A stretch of DNA of 13,981 nucleotides from Candidatus Poribacteria bacterium. Its GTDB lineage: Bacteria; Poribacteria; DTPJ01; WJIO01. The stretch lies in contig WJIO01000353.1 in NCBI GenBank assembly GCA_014730235.1, positions 1 through 13,981 of the forward strand. Direction: 5' to 3'. A program made the position numbers and the translations under genes. Under the pieces are notes generated by a model. It was not told the origin of the DNA and did not search any database. It saw only the letters and a program-made list of their open reading frames with translations. This document shows positions 2,514 to 12,757 of this stretch, piece after piece; within the stretch, counting starts at the first letter, position 1, and the number at the start of each line of letters is the position of its first letter.

Positions 2514-5500
2514 ATGTCTTTAGTTGAGCTTAATGATGACGGTATTCCGGGTATAAAGGAATTATCATCCTTATTCGAACCATACGTCTGGGAATGGTTT
2601 CAGGATACCTTTGGCAAGCCCAGTCCTCCCCAGTTGGCCAGTTGGCCCAGGATAGCAGAAGGCAGGAATACGCTGATATTTTCTCCTACTGGTTCGGGGA
2701 AAACCCTGGCAGCTTTTTTATGGTGTATAAATGACCTTTTCAGCATGGGTGCTCAAAAAGCCACAGTTTATGGTGAAGTGCCACTTCAGGATGCCGTATA
2801 CGTCCTTTATATTTCCCCTTTAAAAGCACTTAATAACGACATCCAGAAGAACCTGACAGAACCTTTGGAAGGTATAAAAAATTACGCTAAAAGACATATT
2901 ACAGATGTACCTGATATTAGATCAGAAGTGCGAACCGGTGACACAACTCAGAGTCAGCGTGCACGAATGGCCCGACGTCCTCCCCACATACTTATAACCA
3001 CCCCTGAGTCCCTCTTTATAATCCTGACAACACAGAAATTCCGGGAAGCCCTGCGAACTGTGAAATATGTTATTGTTGACGAAATCCACGCAATGTCCGA
3101 CAACAAGCGAGGGGTGCATCTATCATCCTCTCTGGAGAGATTACAGGACTTCGCCCGGGAGGATTTTACCCGGATTGGCCTTTCAGCCACCCAGAAGCCG
3201 CTGGACAGGATAGCAAAATACCTGGTAGGTGTTGATAATGATGGCAATCCCAGAGATTGTGAGATCGTGGACGTAGGGGCGCGAAAAGACCTGAACGTGA
3301 GGGTAATATCTCCGGTGGACAACCTTCTGGAATCCCACTTTGACGCTATATGGGGTTCATCCTACGCCCACATGCTTTCTATGGTGCATGAACATGATAC
3401 GACCCTCATATTTACCAATAGCCGATACAAGACTGAAAGGACATCCCTCAGGTTAAACGAGCTTTCGGAGGAAAATCCTGTAAATGTTGGAGCACATCAT
3501 GGAAGCATGTCCAAAAATGTCCGGCTGGACATGGAAAACAAGCTGAAGAACAGCGAGATGGATGCCCTGGTGGCTACTTCGTCTCTTGAGCTTGGTATTG
3601 ATGTGGGCAGCATAGACCTGGTTTGCCAGATACAGTCTCCCAAATCCGTATCAAAAGGTATGCAGCGCATTGGTCGGGCTGGACACCTGCTTAACGCTAC
3701 CAGCAAAGGACGTTTGCTGGTAACTGACAGGGATGACCTGGTAGAATCGGCTGTATTGGTATGGGCTATTATGGAAGGTGAGATTGACACAACGCGAATC
3801 CCCATGAATTGTCTGGATGTCCTGGCCCAACAGATCACAGCGGCAGTGGCTGCAGATGACTGGGAAGCTGATGATCTCTACCGTCTGATGCGTCATTCAT
3901 ACTGCTTTAAGGATTTAGAAAGGGATGATTTTGACCGGGTGCTGGACATGCTGGCGGCAAATTACTCCTTCCGTATGGAGCGCCCTCCCTATGCCAAGAT
4001 AAGCTGGGATAAGGTAAATAATATCCTCAGACCGGAACGCAGCGCGCGCTTAATTGCTTTTCGATCAGGCGGCACTATACCTGATGTGAACGACTACGAT
4101 GTGTATTTCGGAGCGCGTAAGACCAAAGTAGGGCAATTAGACGAGGGGTTCGTTGAAGAACTACACACCGGCGATATATTCATACTGGGTAGCTCGTCCT
4201 GGCAGGTGACAGGTATAGAAAAAAACCGGGTGGTGGTGGAAGATGTTTATGGCAAAGCACCGACTATTCCCTTCTGGGGCGGAGACAGGGATTCCCGCAC
4301 TTATGACTTGGGTGTATTGGTGGGAAAATTCCGCAGAACTATGGATGCCATGCTGGATAAAACAATATCAGAGATCGAGAACTGGCTTGTTGACGAATAT
4401 TTTGTAAACGAAAACGGGGCCAAGTCAATATACGAGTACTTCCGGGAGCAGAAATCCGTTATGGATCATATACCATCGGATCAATTGGTGATGGTGGAAC
4501 ACTTCCACAACGAACTGGGACAACAGCAGATAATAATTCATTCATCCTTTGGTATCCGCATGAATGATCCTTGGGCTATGGCCATAACTGAAGCCATAAG
4601 AAAGAAATACGGATTCCGCATACAATATGCCACTGTGGATGATGGGATTCTTTTGACAATGCCTCCGGAAAAAGAGATTGATCCCCATGAAGTGCTTGAT
4701 CTGGTAAACATTGATAACGTGGACGATTTGCTACAGGAAGCCGTATTCAACTCCCCGGTATTTGCCTCAAGATTTCGGCATAACGCTGTCCGGGCATTGC
4801 TGGTACTCAGGGAATATAAAGGCAGGAAAACACCAGTATGGCTACAAAATCTCCGGGCATCTGAGTTGCTGGAAGCCTGTAGAGAAGATAAGACATTCCC
4901 CCTGATACTGGAGACTATGCGGGAGTGTATGAACGAATCCCTGGATGTGCCAAATCTGTTGAAAGTGTTGGAAAATTTTGAGAACGGCATTATTACATCT
5001 AATGTTATAGATACAAAAATCCCATCGCCTTTTACCCATACCCTGTTACTGGTAGGTCAATATGGCGACTTTGGCACTATCTCGGATCGTGAACGCAAAA
5101 GCAGGATGATGCACCTTCACCGGGAGGTTTTGAGGCAGATTCTGGATGAGGAAACACTGCGAAATCTGCTGGACGAAGAAGCCGTCCAGTCTGTAGAATC
5201 CCGATTACAACACACTGATCCTCAGCGAAAAGCCAGGGATGCCAACGAATTAGCAAGGGTTATATCAGATTTAGGCGACCTGGTGCTTATTCCTGATGAT
5301 GAAATATCCATACAGGATCGAAGCCTGGACGATGCAGGACAGATGATGATGGAACTGGTGAAGGATCATCGGATTATTCGGGTTCCCCTGTCCACCACAG
5401 AGACTAACCGGGAGCGATGGATTACCACAGAGAATTTCCCACTTTACCGGGCGGCTTTTGGTATTGACATAAAGACGGATGATAAAGATGATGAGATTCT

Positions 5501-7748
5501 GGAATACCTGAAAAAATCAGGGGCAGTGTCTCTAAGCCGAATACCTGTGAAAAGCGGTATTGAAAAACCCATGGAAAAGCTTATAAACGGTTACCGGGTA
5601 CTGAGGCTTCATCCCCAATTTTCCCTCAGCGCGGATATGGATTCGGAAAATACCCGCGTTGAGTATGTCTCTGTAGATAGCTGGATTCCTGAGAACATAC
5701 TTGAACAGGATATGGAACGCCTGGAAGCCCGAAAAATCCTGGTGGAAAGGTTTATGAGGACACACGGGCCTGTAACCAAATACGAAATAATGGAACGCTA
5801 CGGCTTTTCCGATACCTTTGTAGGTTCTATTCTTTCCGACCTTTACGAAGAAGGAAGTATAGTCAGCGGAGAATACGTGCCAACCAAATCATTCCCCCAG
5901 TGGTGTTACAAGGCAAACCTGGAGGAGATTCACCGCCTGACTCTCAACCGTCTGCGTAAGGAAATGGAGCCAGCTACACCGGAGGAATACAATGATTTCC
6001 TTATCCGGTGGCAGCATGTGCATCCCGATACCCGGCTTTCAGGTGTTGACGGATTGACGGAAGCTATAGGACAGCTCCAGGGGTATGAGGTTTTGCAGGG
6101 CGTTATTGAACGGGATATGCTGCCATCCCGGGTTAAAGATTACAATAACTCCATGCTGGACAGGCTTTGTTACAGTGGTCAGGTGTTCTGGCGGAGGTTT
6201 GATTACAAATCCCTCAAGCGGGGAAGGATCGGTTTTTGCTTCCGGGAGGATCGGGATTGGGTAGTTACCAACCCGAAGGAAGTTGACATGAAAGTTGACA
6301 AATGGGATGAAGATATACCCGAACAATGCAACGCCGTCAGGGATTACCTACGTAAAAACGGTCCGAGTTTTTTCGACGATATCGTAAAGACAACCGATAT
6401 TGACTGGCGTTACGTCCTTCGTGCTATCTGGCATCTGGTGTGGACGGGTGAGGCCACCAATGATGGCTATGAATCTATACGTCATGCCGGTTTCACCAGC
6501 GGTCTTTCAGGGTGTTATGATTTATTCAAAAAACCCTGGAGTAAAGGCGTCACTGTTGATTATATCATAAAGCACATGCTGGACTATCGCAGGCTTGATC
6601 CTACCCTGGGAAGGTGGGTACCTACTGAAAGACTGCTGCCAGACTCTATGGAAACAATGGAAGCAGAAGTACGGGCGGCAAAGTGGGCGGAACTGCTGCT
6701 GAAACGATACGGGATTATGTGTAAAGACTGTATGAAACGGGAGCAGGGAACGCCGTCATGGGGTGACATACGAAAAGCCCTGATAAAGATGGAACTGCTG
6801 GGAAAAATACGCCGGGGGTTCTTTGTGCAGGAGCTTTCCGGTGAGCAGTTTGCCTATCCTGAAACGGTGGAATTGCTAAGGGAGGCAAAGCTCAGAAATC
6901 CAGAATCTGATGATGAAAACTCCCCAAACTTTGATCCTGATGAACCCATGATATTGCTGAATGTCATTGATCCGGCCAACGCCTTTACCAGCTTTCTGAG
7001 TCTGACAGACGAAGCCGGAGAGGATGTAAAGCTGGGTAATACTCCCCATAATTATGTGGTTTGCCAATATGGCAAGCCTATTGTTTCCTATGCAATTTCC
7101 TCAAATCATATAAAAATCTTAGCTGATTTAACAGACCAGATGGCAGAAAAGGCTATCAGAACCATAATGCAGCTTGTGGACAATCCCCCGCCGGTAGAAA
7201 GCTACAAGGAAATTAACATACGCGATTGGAATGGTCATCCTATTGATGTAAGCCCAGCCCGGTATTTGCTTATGAAGCTAGGTTTTGTAAATTCCGGTAC
7301 TCGGAGTAAAGGTTTTGTCTACGATGGACTCAGCAAAGCTGATGATGCCACTATAATGGAGATGGAACAGAATATACCCGAAATATTTGAAAGGGTTGAC
7401 AAGGAAAAAGCACCGGTAACCTACGATGCCCAGTGGATAATATCCAGATCATACAGGGATATAAGGGATCAGGTGAAAAAACTCCTGGAATTATTGCAGA
7501 AAGAATTACCCAAAAAGTGTGAATTCCATTACTATCCCCGCAGGATTGAGATAAGCTATCGCGGGGTAAAGTGTATTAATCCCCATATCCAGAAAAGGCA
7601 AATAAGGTTACAAATAACCCACAGGGGGTGGACTCCGGGAATATTGATTGATTCTGATACCGATCTGAATTCTCCTGAGTTCATGGAAGTATTCCAGACG
7701 CGATTCCAGAAGACCAGACAGGCTATTGATGATCTACTGGATTCATAG
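2514..7748 (+). CDS. lhr: Lhr-type large superfamily 2 helicase, long form with extra C-terminal domain
   Basis: A 1744-residue ATP-dependent 3'-5' DNA translocase/helicase of the Lhr family, implicated in DNA repair. The core shows Q-motif region PPQ (38-40), motif I SPTGSGKT (57-64), Ia SPLKAL (101-106), TPESL (163-167), Walker B DEIH (189-192), motif III SAT (224-226), motif IV LIFTNSR, motif V ATSSLELGIDVG (354-365) and motif VI QRIGRAGH (384-391). The winged-helix/Lhr core ends near residue 900 with the usual 'LLDEEAVQSVESRLQ'. The C-terminal half carries Lhr-CTD landmarks: GRW near 1365, IRRGFFV near 1432 and DPAN near 1487. In E. coli this region belongs to an AlkZ-like fold and has been reported to have uracil-DNA glycosylase activity. 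Canonical Lhr ends at about residue 1605, and another ~139 residues follow. AGGGAG (2499-2504) lies 9 bases before the ATG. It appears to be a single-gene unit, with no partner nuclease next to it. Confidence 0.95.
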   Translation: MSLVELNDDGIPGIKELSSLFEPYVWEWFQDTFGKPSPPQLASWPRIAEGRNTLIFSPTGSGKTLAAFLWCINDLFSMGAQKATVYGEVPLQDAVYVLYISPLKALNNDIQKNLTEPLEGIKNYAKRHITDVPDIRSEVRTGDTTQSQRARMARRPPHILITTPESLFIILTTQKFREALRTVKYVIVDEIHAMSDNKRGVHLSSSLERLQDFAREDFTRIGLSATQKPLDRIAKYLVGVDNDGNPRDCEIVDVGARKDLNVRVISPVDNLLESHFDAIWGSSYAHMLSMVHEHDTTLIFTNSRYKTERTSLRLNELSEENPVNVGAHHGSMSKNVRLDMENKLKNSEMDALVATSSLELGIDVGSIDLVCQIQSPKSVSKGMQRIGRAGHLLNATSKGRLLVTDRDDLVESAVLVWAIMEGEIDTTRIPMNCLDVLAQQITAAVAADDWEADDLYRLMRHSYCFKDLERDDFDRVLDMLAANYSFRMERPPYAKISWDKVNNILRPERSARLIAFRSGGTIPDVNDYDVYFGARKTKVGQLDEGFVEELHTGDIFILGSSSWQVTGIEKNRVVVEDVYGKAPTIPFWGGDRDSRTYDLGVLVGKFRRTMDAMLDKTISEIENWLVDEYFVNENGAKSIYEYFREQKSVMDHIPSDQLVMVEHFHNELGQQQIIIHSSFGIRMNDPWAMAITEAIRKKYGFRIQYATVDDGILLTMPPEKEIDPHEVLDLVNIDNVDDLLQEAVFNSPVFASRFRHNAVRALLVLREYKGRKTPVWLQNLRASELLEACREDKTFPLILETMRECMNESLDVPNLLKVLENFENGIITSNVIDTKIPSPFTHTLLLVGQYGDFGTISDRERKSRMMHLHREVLRQILDEETLRNLLDEEAVQSVESRLQHTDPQRKARDANELARVISDLGDLVLIPDDEISIQDRSLDDAGQMMMELVKDHRIIRVPLSTTETNRERWITTENFPLYRAAFGIDIKTDDKDDEILEYLKKSGAVSLSRIPVKSGIEKPMEKLINGYRVLRLHPQFSLSADMDSENTRVEYVSVDSWIPENILEQDMERLEARKILVERFMRTHGPVTKYEIMERYGFSDTFVGSILSDLYEEGSIVSGEYVPTKSFPQWCYKANLEEIHRLTLNRLRKEMEPATPEEYNDFLIRWQHVHPDTRLSGVDGLTEAIGQLQGYEVLQGVIERDMLPSRVKDYNNSMLDRLCYSGQVFWRRFDYKSLKRGRIGFCFREDRDWVVTNPKEVDMKVDKWDEDIPEQCNAVRDYLRKNGPSFFDDIVKTTDIDWRYVLRAIWHLVWTGEATNDGYESIRHAGFTSGLSGCYDLFKKPWSKGVTVDYIIKHMLDYRRLDPTLGRWVPTERLLPDSMETMEAEVRAAKWAELLLKRYGIMCKDCMKREQGTPSWGDIRKALIKMELLGKIRRGFFVQELSGEQFAYPETVELLREAKLRNPESDDENSPNFDPDEPMILLNVIDPANAFTSFLSLTDEAGEDVKLGNTPHNYVVCQYGKPIVSYAISSNHIKILADLTDQMAEKAIRTIMQLVDNPPPVESYKEINIRDWNGHPIDVSPARYLLMKLGFVNSGTRSKGFVYDGLSKADDATIMEMEQNIPEIFERVDKEKAPVTYDAQWIISRSYRDIRDQVKKLLELLQKELPKKCEFHYYPRRIEISYRGVKCINPHIQKRQIRLQITHRGWTPGILIDSDTDLNSPEFMEVFQTRFQKTRQAIDDLLDS

Positions 7749-7832: not shown

Positions 7833-7838
7833 AGGAGG
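7833..7838 (+). promoter_or_regulatory. Shine-Dalgarno AGGAGG selecting ATG 7847
   Basis: A perfect AGGAGG lies 8 bases before ATG 7847. The in-frame GTG at 7838 overlaps the last G of this site and cannot be the start that uses it, so the protein begins MSCETCC. Confidence 0.85.
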
Positions 7839-7846
7839 TGAACATC

Positions 7847-9796
7847 ATGTCCTGTGAAACCTGTTGTAAAAATGAAGATCATTGTAGTATTGAAGAAAAA
7901 GAAAATGAGGGGCTTTTAAAAAACAGGAAATTTCTCTGGCTTTTAGCAACATTAATAATCGTTGCGCCCTTTGAAATCCTTTCATTTTTTTCCATACATT
8001 TTCCTATATGGATCGAGCTTCCCATATCCCTGGCTATTGTGCTGTTTTTTGGCAGGCACATAATAATCAGCGGCTTGAAAAGTCTTATAAGGTTGAATTT
8101 TTCCAATATAAATTTGCTGATGACTATCGCCTCTTTTGGGGCTATATATCTTGGACACTATGCGGAAGCTGTGATAATCGTTGTTTTATTTGCCCTGGGT
8201 GAAACTTTAGAGGATTATGGAGTTGAACGAAGCCAGAAATCCCTCAAGGAACTGGTGGAAAAAGTCCCTAAATCGGCTTTGATAAAGGGAGAAGAGAAGA
8301 AAATACCCATTGAGGATATTAAAGCCGGTGAAATAATCGCCATAAAACCCGGTGATCAGATTCCCCTTGACGGTGTTGTCGTTGAGGGAAATTCATCAGT
8401 TGACGAAACCTCCATAACAGGAGAACCGTTGCCCAGCGGAAAATTTCCGGGTGATGAAGTCTATGCTGGAACTACAAATAAAGAAGGTTACATGGAAATA
8501 GCGGTAACAAAAGAGTCAAAGGACACAACCCTTTCTAAAATTATTGACCTCACATATAAGTCTGCCGCAAAGAAATCATCATCTCAGAGGTTTATCGAAC
8601 GATTTGCCCGGATATATACTCCCCTGGTGGTATTCACCGCCCTTTTGCTTGTGTTGATCCCCGTGCTGTTTATGGGCAAACCATTTAACGAATATTTTGA
8701 GCGGGCCTTAACTATTCTGGTTATATCATGTCCATGTGCGCTGGTTATATCCACACCGGTTTCCATATTCTCGGCTATAGGTAACGCAACCAAAAAAGGT
8801 ATACTGATAAAAGGTGGGAAGTATATTGAGGAGATAGGCAGGATAAAGGCCATAGCTCTGGACAAAACCCGGACATTAACTAAAGGTCAGCCTGTGGTTT
8901 CAGATATTGTGCCATTTCGAGGTACGGAAGAGGATGTTATCGCCTGCGCCGCCGGTATCGAATCCTATTCGGAGCACCCCATCGCTAAAAGTATTATATC
9001 AAAAGCTCAGGAAGGACAGCTTGATGTCCACGAATATATAGATTTTCAGGCAGTTCCCGGTAAAGGTATAAAAGGCAACTGTACTGTGTGTGTCAGCGGT
9101 CATCACTGTCTGGGAAGCATAAAATTTGTCAAGGAAGAGCATGAGGTAGATGAAAAAGTCTTTGAAAAGGTAAAGGAATTTGAAAAACAAGGTAAAACAG
9201 CTATTATCACCAGCGACAACAAAGGTGTAAAGGGTGTTATAGGCGTAACTGACGAAATAAGAAAAGAGAGTAAATCCGTCATTGAAAGACTTTTAAAGTA
9301 CAAAATAAACCCGGTCATCTTAACAGGAGATAACAGGGACTCAGCAGAATTCGTCGCCTCTAATCTGGGTATAAAAGACGTAAGAGCTGAACTTCTACCG
9401 GGTGGAAAAGCTCAGGAGATGTCAGAGCTTATTGAGGATTACAAGCATGTGGCTATGGTCGGTGACGGTGTAAATGATGCTCCGGCGTTGGCAACTGCTT
9501 CGGTAGGTATTGCTATGGGTGCTATTGGTTCAGATGTAGCTATTGAAAATGCCGATATTGCCTTGATGAAAGATAATCTGGATATGGTTCCATATCTGAT
9601 TGGTCTGGGTAAGAAGTGTGTAAATAAAATAAGATTTAACGTTTTCTTTGCAATACTAACCAAGTTGTTTTTTCTGATATTAGCCATTATCGGTTTGAGT
9701 AATTTGGTACTGGCTATCTTTGCTGATGTGGGAGTTACAGTGCTGGTGATTCTGAACAGCCTGAGGTTATATGGTTACAAAGATAAGACAAACTAA
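7847..9796 (+). CDS. P1B-type heavy-metal (Zn/Cd/Pb) efflux ATPase with DKTR phosphorylation motif
   Basis: A 649-residue P-type ATPase expected to pump divalent soft metals out of the cytoplasm. It shows TGE (191-193) in the actuator domain, CPC (295-297) in the membrane, HP (377-378) of the soft-metal class, TGD (493-495) and GDGVND (539-544). A Lys in the next-to-last membrane helix (about 606) and 'DVG' in the last (D627) are with CPC the P1B-2 Zn/Cd/Pb signature. There is no N-terminal HMA domain; instead a short tail has Cys 3, 6, 7, 13 and His 12. The phosphorylation loop reads DKTRTLTKG (339-347): the acceptor Asp is kept but the usual Gly is Arg (codon CGG at 8870-8872). A Cys/His cluster lies in the nucleotide-binding domain (412-421). 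No ArsR/MerR regulator is adjacent. Function is probable, but the altered motif leaves activity uncertain. Confidence 0.92.
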   Translation: MSCETCCKNEDHCSIEEKENEGLLKNRKFLWLLATLIIVAPFEILSFFSIHFPIWIELPISLAIVLFFGRHIIISGLKSLIRLNFSNINLLMTIASFGAIYLGHYAEAVIIVVLFALGETLEDYGVERSQKSLKELVEKVPKSALIKGEEKKIPIEDIKAGEIIAIKPGDQIPLDGVVVEGNSSVDETSITGEPLPSGKFPGDEVYAGTTNKEGYMEIAVTKESKDTTLSKIIDLTYKSAAKKSSSQRFIERFARIYTPLVVFTALLLVLIPVLFMGKPFNEYFERALTILVISCPCALVISTPVSIFSAIGNATKKGILIKGGKYIEEIGRIKAIALDKTRTLTKGQPVVSDIVPFRGTEEDVIACAAGIESYSEHPIAKSIISKAQEGQLDVHEYIDFQAVPGKGIKGNCTVCVSGHHCLGSIKFVKEEHEVDEKVFEKVKEFEKQGKTAIITSDNKGVKGVIGVTDEIRKESKSVIERLLKYKINPVILTGDNRDSAEFVASNLGIKDVRAELLPGGKAQEMSELIEDYKHVAMVGDGVNDAPALATASVGIAMGAIGSDVAIENADIALMKDNLDMVPYLIGLGKKCVNKIRFNVFFAILTKLFFLILAIIGLSNLVLAIFADVGVTVLVILNSLRLYGYKDKTN

Positions 9797-9801
9797 GAGT
9801 G

Positions 9802-9843
9802 AAAAACAAAGCCGGTTCGATTAATCGAACCGGCTTTGTTTTT
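9802..9843. terminator. Bidirectional intrinsic terminator (perfect 42-base palindrome)
   Basis: The arms 9802-9822 and 9823-9843 are exact reverse complements. They form a GC-rich stem (GCCGGTTCGA) with a short TTAA turn, flanked by A5C on the left and GT5 on the right. Each strand therefore gives a hairpin followed by a U-run. It lies 5 bases after the metal ATPase stop and 12 bases from the stop of the converging dehydrogenase gene, so it should end both transcripts. Confidence 0.93.
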
Positions 9844-10921: not shown

Positions 10922-12757
10922 TTATTCAGGAAACATCATGGCCATCATAAACTCATTCTGAAAATCCGGGTCAACGGCTAATTCCATGTAACCTGTGTTT
11001 TTTGCAATAGTTTCAGCCGTTTTACGGGCTTCCCTTGACATCAAAGCCATCTTGGCCCCGGCGGCAGCCGCATTACCTATAAAGTTGACTTTTTCCAACG
11101 GAAATTTAGGTATAAGACCCAGTTGGATAGCATTTTCACCCTTAATATAATTACCAAAAGCCCCGGCCATCAGGACTTCTGAAACATCGTCCAGAGAAAT
11201 ACCCATAGTCTTCATTAAAATATTTACACCAGCTTCAATAGCACCTTTGGCCAACTGCACCTGACGAACATCTTTCTGGGTAATAACCACTTCCCGGTCG
11301 TTGGATTTATCCAGCACCAGATGACGGCCATATTCATCGTTTTCTTTCAAATATTCTTTAAGGCCATCGGGTATTTTTGATCCAACTTCATCGGCTGATA
11401 GCATGCGCCCTGTGCTGTCCACAATACCCAACTTTAGCATCTCCGCCACAACATCAATAAGACCAGATCCGCATATTCCTATGGCATGGCCTCCTCTGAT
11501 CACCTGACAGACAGGTTTATCTTTAAGTTCAACTCTCTCTATAGCTCCGGGAGCGGCTCTCATGCCATGAGTTATCATTGCACCCTCAAAAGCTGGCCCG
11601 GCGGCACATGAACAGGTCATAAGCTTATCTTTTGATCCCAGAGCAAGTTCACCGTTGGTTCCAATATCAATAGCCAGTTTAATAGTGTCGCTTTTATGTA
11701 AATCCGAAGCCAGGATAACCCCCACAGTATCAGCACCAACAAAACCCGCGATACTTGGCAATACATACACATTAGCGTTGGAATTAACATTCAGGTTTAA
11801 CCTGTATGCCCTGGTCTCAACAGGATCGCTGACCACCGGCACATAAGGGATCAAAGACAGATACTTGGGAGGAATTTTCAGGAAAAGGTGGATCATTGTA
11901 GTATTGCCTACTACTGTAACCTCGTAGACATTATTCGGATCAACGCCGGCCTCATTACAGGCATATTCAGTGATCTGGTTTATAACCTGAACAACCCGTC
12001 TATTTAAATCCTCAAGGCCGTTTTCGTTTTCTACAGTATAATTAATTCTGGATATAACATCAGCACCATGAACGCCTTGTGTATTTAATGCCGAAGCTAC
12101 AGATATATTTGAGCCATTATTTAAATCTACCACATTGCAGACAACCGATGTTGTTCCAATATCCACAGCCAGGCCGTACTTTTTCCCTAAGGTGTTACCC
12201 GGCTCAATATCAATAAGCGTGTTTCCATCCAGGACGGCAGTTACCTTATATTTAGAATCCCTGATTATCTCTGACATTTTATATAAAACGTCCAGTTCTG
12301 CCACAAGTTTTCCACCGTTAAGATCCAGATTCTTTTCAAGGCTGGATAAATCGGCGATCTGGTTTTCCAGAGTTTGCTCATCAAGTTCTAAGTATACTTT
12401 GGATATATTTGGATGAAGCTTTACAAGCTGACCTTTTCCATCTGAAAGGATTTTGCTTTCTGCAATTTTTGAGTCCTCTGGAACATTTACCTCCATATCA
12501 CCCAAAACCTTTGTCTGGCATGCCAGTCTGTGACCTTTTTTCAGGTTTTCACTGGAAATTAATCTCTCCTCAGCCTCGGTAGGTATACTCAGATTACTAC
12601 CTTTTACTACAACACGACACTTTCCACATGTTCCTTCCCCACCACAGGGAGAGTTGATAACAATATCAACCGACGCCGCAGCGTCTTTAATGTTTGTGCC
12701 TTCTTTAACATCTGCTATTTTTCCGTCAGGTTTAAACTCAACCTTATAAGTAGCCAA
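10922..12757 (-). CDS. RACo-like reductive activator of corrinoid proteins (2Fe-2S ferredoxin + ASKHA/DUF4445)
   Basis: A 611-residue cytosolic metallo-ATPase of the family that re-reduces inactive Co(II) corrinoid proteins to Co(I) for methyl transfer (RACo of CoFeSP and the activases of O-demethylases; known members are about 600-640 residues). An N-terminal [2Fe-2S] domain has Cys 38, 44, 47 and 80 in plant-ferredoxin spacing. A linker region runs to about 190. The ASKHA part has phosphate loops 'VDIGTTS' (198-204) and 'AIDIGTNGE' (362-370), 'AGPAFEG' (386-392), 'GICGSGLID' (427-435), 'QKDVRQVQLAKGAI' (494-507) and 'AGAFGNYI' (531-538). These are all typical of DUF4445. The start is TTG 12757, with GGAG 7 bases upstream. 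It lies 77 bases after the ROK kinase gene. No methyltransferase or B12-binding protein is in the window, so its partner must be elsewhere. Confidence 0.9.
   Translation of the reverse strand: MATYKVEFKPDGKIADVKEGTNIKDAAASVDIVINSPCGGEGTCGKCRVVVKGSNLSIPTEAEERLISSENLKKGHRLACQTKVLGDMEVNVPEDSKIAESKILSDGKGQLVKLHPNISKVYLELDEQTLENQIADLSSLEKNLDLNGGKLVAELDVLYKMSEIIRDSKYKVTAVLDGNTLIDIEPGNTLGKKYGLAVDIGTTSVVCNVVDLNNGSNISVASALNTQGVHGADVISRINYTVENENGLEDLNRRVVQVINQITEYACNEAGVDPNNVYEVTVVGNTTMIHLFLKIPPKYLSLIPYVPVVSDPVETRAYRLNLNVNSNANVYVLPSIAGFVGADTVGVILASDLHKSDTIKLAIDIGTNGELALGSKDKLMTCSCAAGPAFEGAMITHGMRAAPGAIERVELKDKPVCQVIRGGHAIGICGSGLIDVVAEMLKLGIVDSTGRMLSADEVGSKIPDGLKEYLKENDEYGRHLVLDKSNDREVVITQKDVRQVQLAKGAIEAGVNILMKTMGISLDDVSEVLMAGAFGNYIKGENAIQLGLIPKFPLEKVNFIGNAAAAGAKMALMSREARKTAETIAKNTGYMELAVDPDFQNEFMMAMMFPE

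Follow-up and report, generated by a model that had tools for sequence, protein, structure and literature searches.

The ATPase gene and its surroundings

The window, that is, the whole stretch of 13,981 nucleotides analysed here, contains a gene for a P1B-type heavy-metal ATPase, the features of which are collected in Table 1. Its reading frame is uninterrupted on the + strand from 7838 to 9796. The GTG at which the listed frame begins lies within the ribosome-binding sequence, and the ATG is therefore the better start; the residue numbers used here are counted from the GTG, and numbering from the ATG is obtained by subtracting 3. An earlier reading made from the letters alone (the sequence-only reading) had described a phosphorylation loop DKTRTLT, instead of DKTGTLT, in a gene that does not look decayed. 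Re-reading of the window gave the same loop and the same arginine codon, and the gene indeed looks whole, with an open frame, a ribosome-binding sequence and a terminator. The motifs TGE, CPC, HP, TGD and GDGVND are likewise intact, as had been claimed, to which we add that TGE is followed by a proline and not by the serine of most pumps. The sequence-only reading mentioned neither this TGES to TGEP change nor the four co-conserved Cys/His residues of the nucleotide-binding (N) domain that are described below.

Table 1. Positions of the ATPase gene and its features in the window
Feature	Position	Strand	Remark
P1B-type (Zn/Cd-like) heavy-metal ATPase gene	7847..9796	+	listed ORF starts at GTG 7838
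Ribosome-binding sequence GGAGGTG	7834..7840	+	precedes ATG 7847
A-domain dephosphorylation loop TGEP	8417..8428	+	TGES in most P-type ATPases
CPC metal-site motif, M4	8729..8737	+	
Phosphorylation loop DKTRTLT	8861..8881	+	GAC AAA ACC CGG ACA TTA ACT
Arg345 codon CGG	8870..8872	+	Gly in 53/53 comparison pumps; Arg or Lys in 69/69 clade members
Cys370	8945..8947	+	first of four clade-invariant N-domain Cys/His residues
His398	9029..9031	+	clade-invariant
Cys415-x2-Cys418	9080..9091	+	short insertion after GxG nucleotide motif; clade-invariant
Lys609 of M5	9662..9664	+	P1B-2 N(x)7K motif; by alignment (PMC6305203)
Asp630 of M6 with DxG(x)7N	9725..9757	+	P1B-2 signature; by alignment (PMC6305203)
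Strong intrinsic terminator, 19-bp stem	9802..9843	+	downstream of ATPase gene

The protein passes the cut-off of the P1B heavy-metal ATPase family TIGR01525 (582.9 bits, cut-off 346) and the curated cut-off of the cadmium family TIGR01512 (504 bits), just misses that of the copper family TIGR01511 (393 bits, cut-off 397) and stays below the curated cut-off of the ZntA equivalog NF033775 (450 bits, cut-off 1240). Pfam recognised only the E1-E2 ATPase and hydrolase domains and, in particular, no classical N-terminal metal-binding domain, a domain that is typical of P1B-2 pumps, though not universal among them. Instead, the N-terminal end consists of a short Cys-containing tail, MSCETCCKNEDHC. 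This tail (window positions 7847-7900) has four cysteines and one histidine and might bind metal; a similar tail is missing in most of the other clade members that were read, although one of them (L056) has a Cys-containing one. By sequence, ZntA (4umv) is the closest solved structure. AlphaFold predicts a P1B fold (mean pLDDT 85), which in structural comparison comes closest to ZntA, CopA and the Cd ATPase 7qbz.

The ATPase gene stands alone between a helicase gene and a Gfo/Idh-type gene; neither a metal operon nor an adjacent metal regulator was found at the window copy. The helicase gene (2514-7748) encodes an Lhr-like ATP-dependent helicase of 1744 residues with a long C-terminal extension, which passes the PRK13767 cut-off. 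On the - strand, 10922-12757 encodes a large protein that, by eye, combines an N-terminal plant-type 2Fe-2S ferredoxin-like motif with an ASKHA-like part and thereby resembles corrinoid activation proteins (RACo). A ROK-type kinase gene and a Gfo/Idh-type oxidoreductase gene, both assigned by eye, adjoin it.

A clade of pumps with arginine or lysine in the phosphorylation loop

The window's genome encodes three further P-type ATPases, all of which have glycine at the position of Arg345. So do 29 relatives fetched from other genomes, but these relatives are at most 42% identical to the window protein. When the pattern DKTRT was searched in 280 genomes (five phylum-level samples), only the window's match lay within an ATPase among the matches read, a reading from which two repeat-like matches (L123, L124) were left out. 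A genome scan with patterns taken from the window protein alone gave 0 matches, these patterns being private to that protein, and a search of viral contigs yielded no relative. The best plasmid match, on the other hand, was a protein encoded by a complete plasmid of Criblamydia sequanensis (Chlamydiota), which is 53% identical and carries DKTRTLT. A further scan, covering one genome per species, used the patterns IKAIALDK and EHP[IL]AKSI, which were derived from a two-sequence subregion alignment and include neither the arginine nor the cysteines. It kept the 80 loci that resembled the query most, a selection in which rarer intermediates may have been missed; 67 of these 80 (L037-L103) have DKTRTLT, DKTRTIT or DKTKTLT, and the remaining 13 have DKTGT.

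The window protein, the 67 scanned loci (among the 80 most like the query) and the plasmid sequence make up a set of 69 members, in which position 345 is arginine in 66, lysine in 3 and glycine in none. All six arginine codons are used (CGA 28, AGA 17, CGC 9, CGT 5, CGG 4 and AGG 3, next to AAA 3 for lysine). The three lysine loci (L048, L049 and L052), which have DKTKTLT and keep the Cys/His set, come from records with the label Actinomycetota, including one of Candidatus Humimicrobium; the two that were long enough to be placed in the tree group together. About a dozen phyla are represented by the labels of the clade records, namely Bacteroidota, Chlamydiota, Spirochaetota, Atribacterota, Actinomycetota, Armatimonadota, Planctomycetota, Ignavibacteriota, Myxococcota, Thermodesulfobacteriota and Pseudomonadota, as well as candidate phyla including WWE3. 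Most of these records are metagenome bins, and their phylum assignment may be mistaken in some cases; several named isolates are included as well, among them strains of Flavobacterium frigoris, F. degerlachei and F. granuli, all with arginine.

In a tree of 117 proteins a branch with a support of 100 separates all sequences with arginine or lysine from the rest, and a slower tree of 65 proteins, from which the trait columns had been removed, recovers them as a clade with 100/100 support. The nearest DKTGT neighbours of this clade are CadA/ZntA-like pumps. Judged by these sequence trees, the pumps with arginine or lysine form one clade of single origin. Spread of the arginine by convergence was considered and ruled out, since both trees give one clade. 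Members of the clade are down to 40% identical in pairwise comparison, so that the arginine has outlived much sequence change; moreover, the codons have changed many times while the positive charge has stayed, which argues for selection on the charge. The sequence data thus indicate that the arginine at position 345 is real and maintained by selection. The nearest relative of the window protein, L039, is 72% identical, and the nearest homologues (70-72%) all have arginine. Within the window's phylum, no ATPase with the motif was found in the 83 other genomes, so that, out of 84, the window's genome alone was found to carry it. Because of this rarity, and because its nearest kin are in other phyla, the window copy has likely been acquired horizontally, this being the simplest reading.

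Metal site, co-occurring changes and comparison with known pumps

The residues that define the superfamily (the aspartate with K and T, TGE, TGD and GDGxND) are all present in the window protein. The P-type signature DKTGT itself is replaced by DKTRT, which is why we term the protein a variant. P1B pumps are recognised by CPC and SEHP, both of which are found, and C298, P299, C300, H380 and P381 are each present in 69 of 69 clade members. The P1B-2 signatures are DxG(x)7N in M6 and N(x)7K in M5 (PMC6305203). The window protein has both, with D630/G632/N640 and N601/K609; across the clade the final N of DxG(x)7N is often replaced. In ZntA the metal site is formed by C392, C394 and D714, with K693 as counter-ion (PMC6305203, PMC8880997), and by alignment the equivalents of C392/C394, K693 and D714 in the clade are the CPC motif (69/69), Lys609 (65/65) and Asp630 (62/63). 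On the strength of this alignment, the membrane metal site of the clade is assigned to the Zn/Cd type.

Several other changes accompany the arginine. All 69 clade members have Cys370, His398, Cys415 and Cys418 in the N domain, and none of the 53 comparison DKTGT pumps does; 51 of the latter have a gap at position 415 and the other two L and I, and the residues listed for them at positions 370, 398 and 418 include no Cys or His. A His-His-Cys is added in the window protein and in many members from outside the Bacteroidota. TGEP replaces TGES in 66 of 69 clade members versus 5 of 53 comparison pumps, and the clade has an invariant Thr231 and Thr239 close to the linker of the A domain. In the secondary structure of the model, the strands E400-406, E410-415 and E422-426 suggest that His398, before one strand, would face Cys415-x2-Cys418, at the end of the next, across a hairpin. 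With four metal-type ligands fixed together, the Cys3His set looks like a metal site in the N domain. In addition, it has been reported that in the E2P state the TGES loop is docked against the DKTG loop (PMC5387105), and both partners of this contact would thus be altered, TGES to TGEP and DKTG to DKTR/K. All these changes map to one long branch, and for this reason the co-occurrence of the arginine, the Cys/His set and TGEP counts, as far as the trees go, as a single event and not as statistical proof that they work together.

The P1B-2 pumps ZntA of E. coli/Shigella and CadA of S. aureus share with the clade the fold, CPC, the Lys of M5, the Asp of M6, HP, GxG, TGD and GDGVND. At an identity of about 35-43%, the clade differs from them by having DKTRT instead of DKTGT, TGEP instead of TGES, and the N-domain Cys/His set with its short insertion, and by being without the classical N-terminal metal-binding domain. 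The P1B-4 pump sCoaT (7qbz) has the P1B fold and also lacks such a domain (PMC8880997), but has a DKTGT loop and, in its membrane site, S325-x-C327 and H657, whereas the clade has CPC, Lys and Asp. The P1B-1 copper ATPases CopA and ATP7B share the fold and CPC; unlike them, the clade has no N-terminal copper domains, and its membrane residues are of the Zn/Cd type.

Function of the variant pumps

In about 40% of the loci, Czc/Cus-type RND efflux genes adjoin the gene of the Arg-type ATPase: a CzcB-like adaptor is found near it in 29 loci and a CzcA/CusA-like RND pump in 28. Two of these pumps, of L043 and L035, were confirmed as members of the CusA/CzcA family, and those with a readable motif have DFGLIVDGA, which we take to be that of the divalent-metal type of RND pump. 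The RND genes (outer-membrane, adaptor and pump) mostly lie upstream of the ATPase gene (L043, L062-L100 and others), and some loci show a single long frame that spans both the pump and the outer-membrane protein.

We consider it probable that the window gene encodes a working P1B heavy-metal exporter, nearest to the Zn/Cd/Pb pumps CadA and ZntA, that belongs to a distinct and widespread DKT[R/K]T clade. Since the remaining catalytic residues are kept, D342 would still form the aspartyl phosphate. The pump would export a divalent metal to the periplasm, from where the RND pump, when present, would remove it.

The sequence-only reading had left the choice between a natural subfamily, a recent inactivating change and a sequencing error, and had proposed a homologue search to see whether the arginine is conserved in a clade. 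The search found that it is: arginine, rarely lysine, is the invariant state of a monophyletic group that spans many phyla, named strains included, and there is no series of near-equal homologues that all have glycine. It is true that CGG is one base away from GGG, that the draft genome is fragmented (451 contigs) and that, within its phylum, the motif was found in an ATPase of the window's genome alone. A sequencing or assembly error, or a recent private Gly to Arg mutation, is nevertheless refuted and retains hardly any probability, given that 68 other sequences from independent records, among them named isolates and a complete plasmid, have Arg or Lys at the same position, with all six arginine codons in use, and that a recent inactivating change is at odds with the arginine of the nearest homologues.

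That the whole clade has ceased to pump, the arginine abolishing phosphoryl transfer and the protein serving as a metal sensor or binding protein, is unlikely in our judgement. Its appeal lies in the Cys/His set, which could bind metal without transport, and in published accounts of DKTGT, which is said not to vary among P1B pumps (PMC5089723) and is named as the P-type ATPase signature (PMC10654040). However, D342, K343, TGE, TGD, K524, GDGxND and the membrane metal site are invariant or nearly so, and an inactive pump would hardly be expected to retain its catalytic and membrane-site residues; the efflux operon context also speaks against it. We regard as equally improbable that the pump is active and the arginine a near-neutral accident of the clade, with a side chain that perhaps faces the solvent and has no special role. 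The three lysines show that the exact chemistry is not needed, and some HAD phosphatases are known with N, S, E or Y at the position equivalent to Arg345. A neutral site should, however, show other residues, and only positively charged ones occur in the 69 sequences, despite identities down to 40%.

In a working exporter, the positively charged Arg or Lys of the phosphorylation loop could interact with either the docking TGEP loop in E2P or the phosphates of ATP in E1, and such a contact would change the phosphorylation or dephosphorylation steps. Cys370, His398, Cys415 and Cys418 would form an N-domain metal site, probably for Zn, which would be structural or sense cytosolic metal, and which may take the place of the classical N-terminal metal-binding domain that the pump lacks. 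More tentatively, and with rather low confidence, we propose that this Cys3His site in the ATP-binding domain senses cytosolic metal and gates phosphorylation or dephosphorylation via Arg/Lys and the altered TGE loop. If so, the catalytic head itself would exert metal control, in place of a terminal metal-binding domain like those that regulate other P1B pumps.

The branch is most likely an uncharacterised and widespread variant of the P1B pumps with a remodelled catalytic loop. In the literature searched, a scope outside which most subscription journals lie, so that an earlier notice is possible, DKTRTLT had no match, and DKTRT combined with ATPase matched only an unrelated paper on an ABC transporter. 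The glycine of DKTGT is treated as belonging to a signature that does not vary between pumps as different as bacterial metal exporters and the sodium pump, and a large natural Arg/Lys clade offers evolution-tested proteins for asking what this glycine does, with TGEP and the N-domain Cys/His residues as suggested compensating changes. The clade also brings to light little-described exporters of metals that occur in Bacteroidota, Chlamydiota and candidate phyla and that motif-based annotation could miss.

Two details of the neighbourhoods may be added. Next to the Criblamydia gene there are also genes for a multicopper oxidase and a copper-binding protein, and we therefore keep copper as an option: it may be the metal of that branch. 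Furthermore, a small conserved protein (about 129 residues), possibly related to DUF3703, is encoded next to the ATPase, mostly one gene upstream, in 11 loci (L066, L068, L078, L079, L083, L084, L090, L097, L098, L100 and L102).
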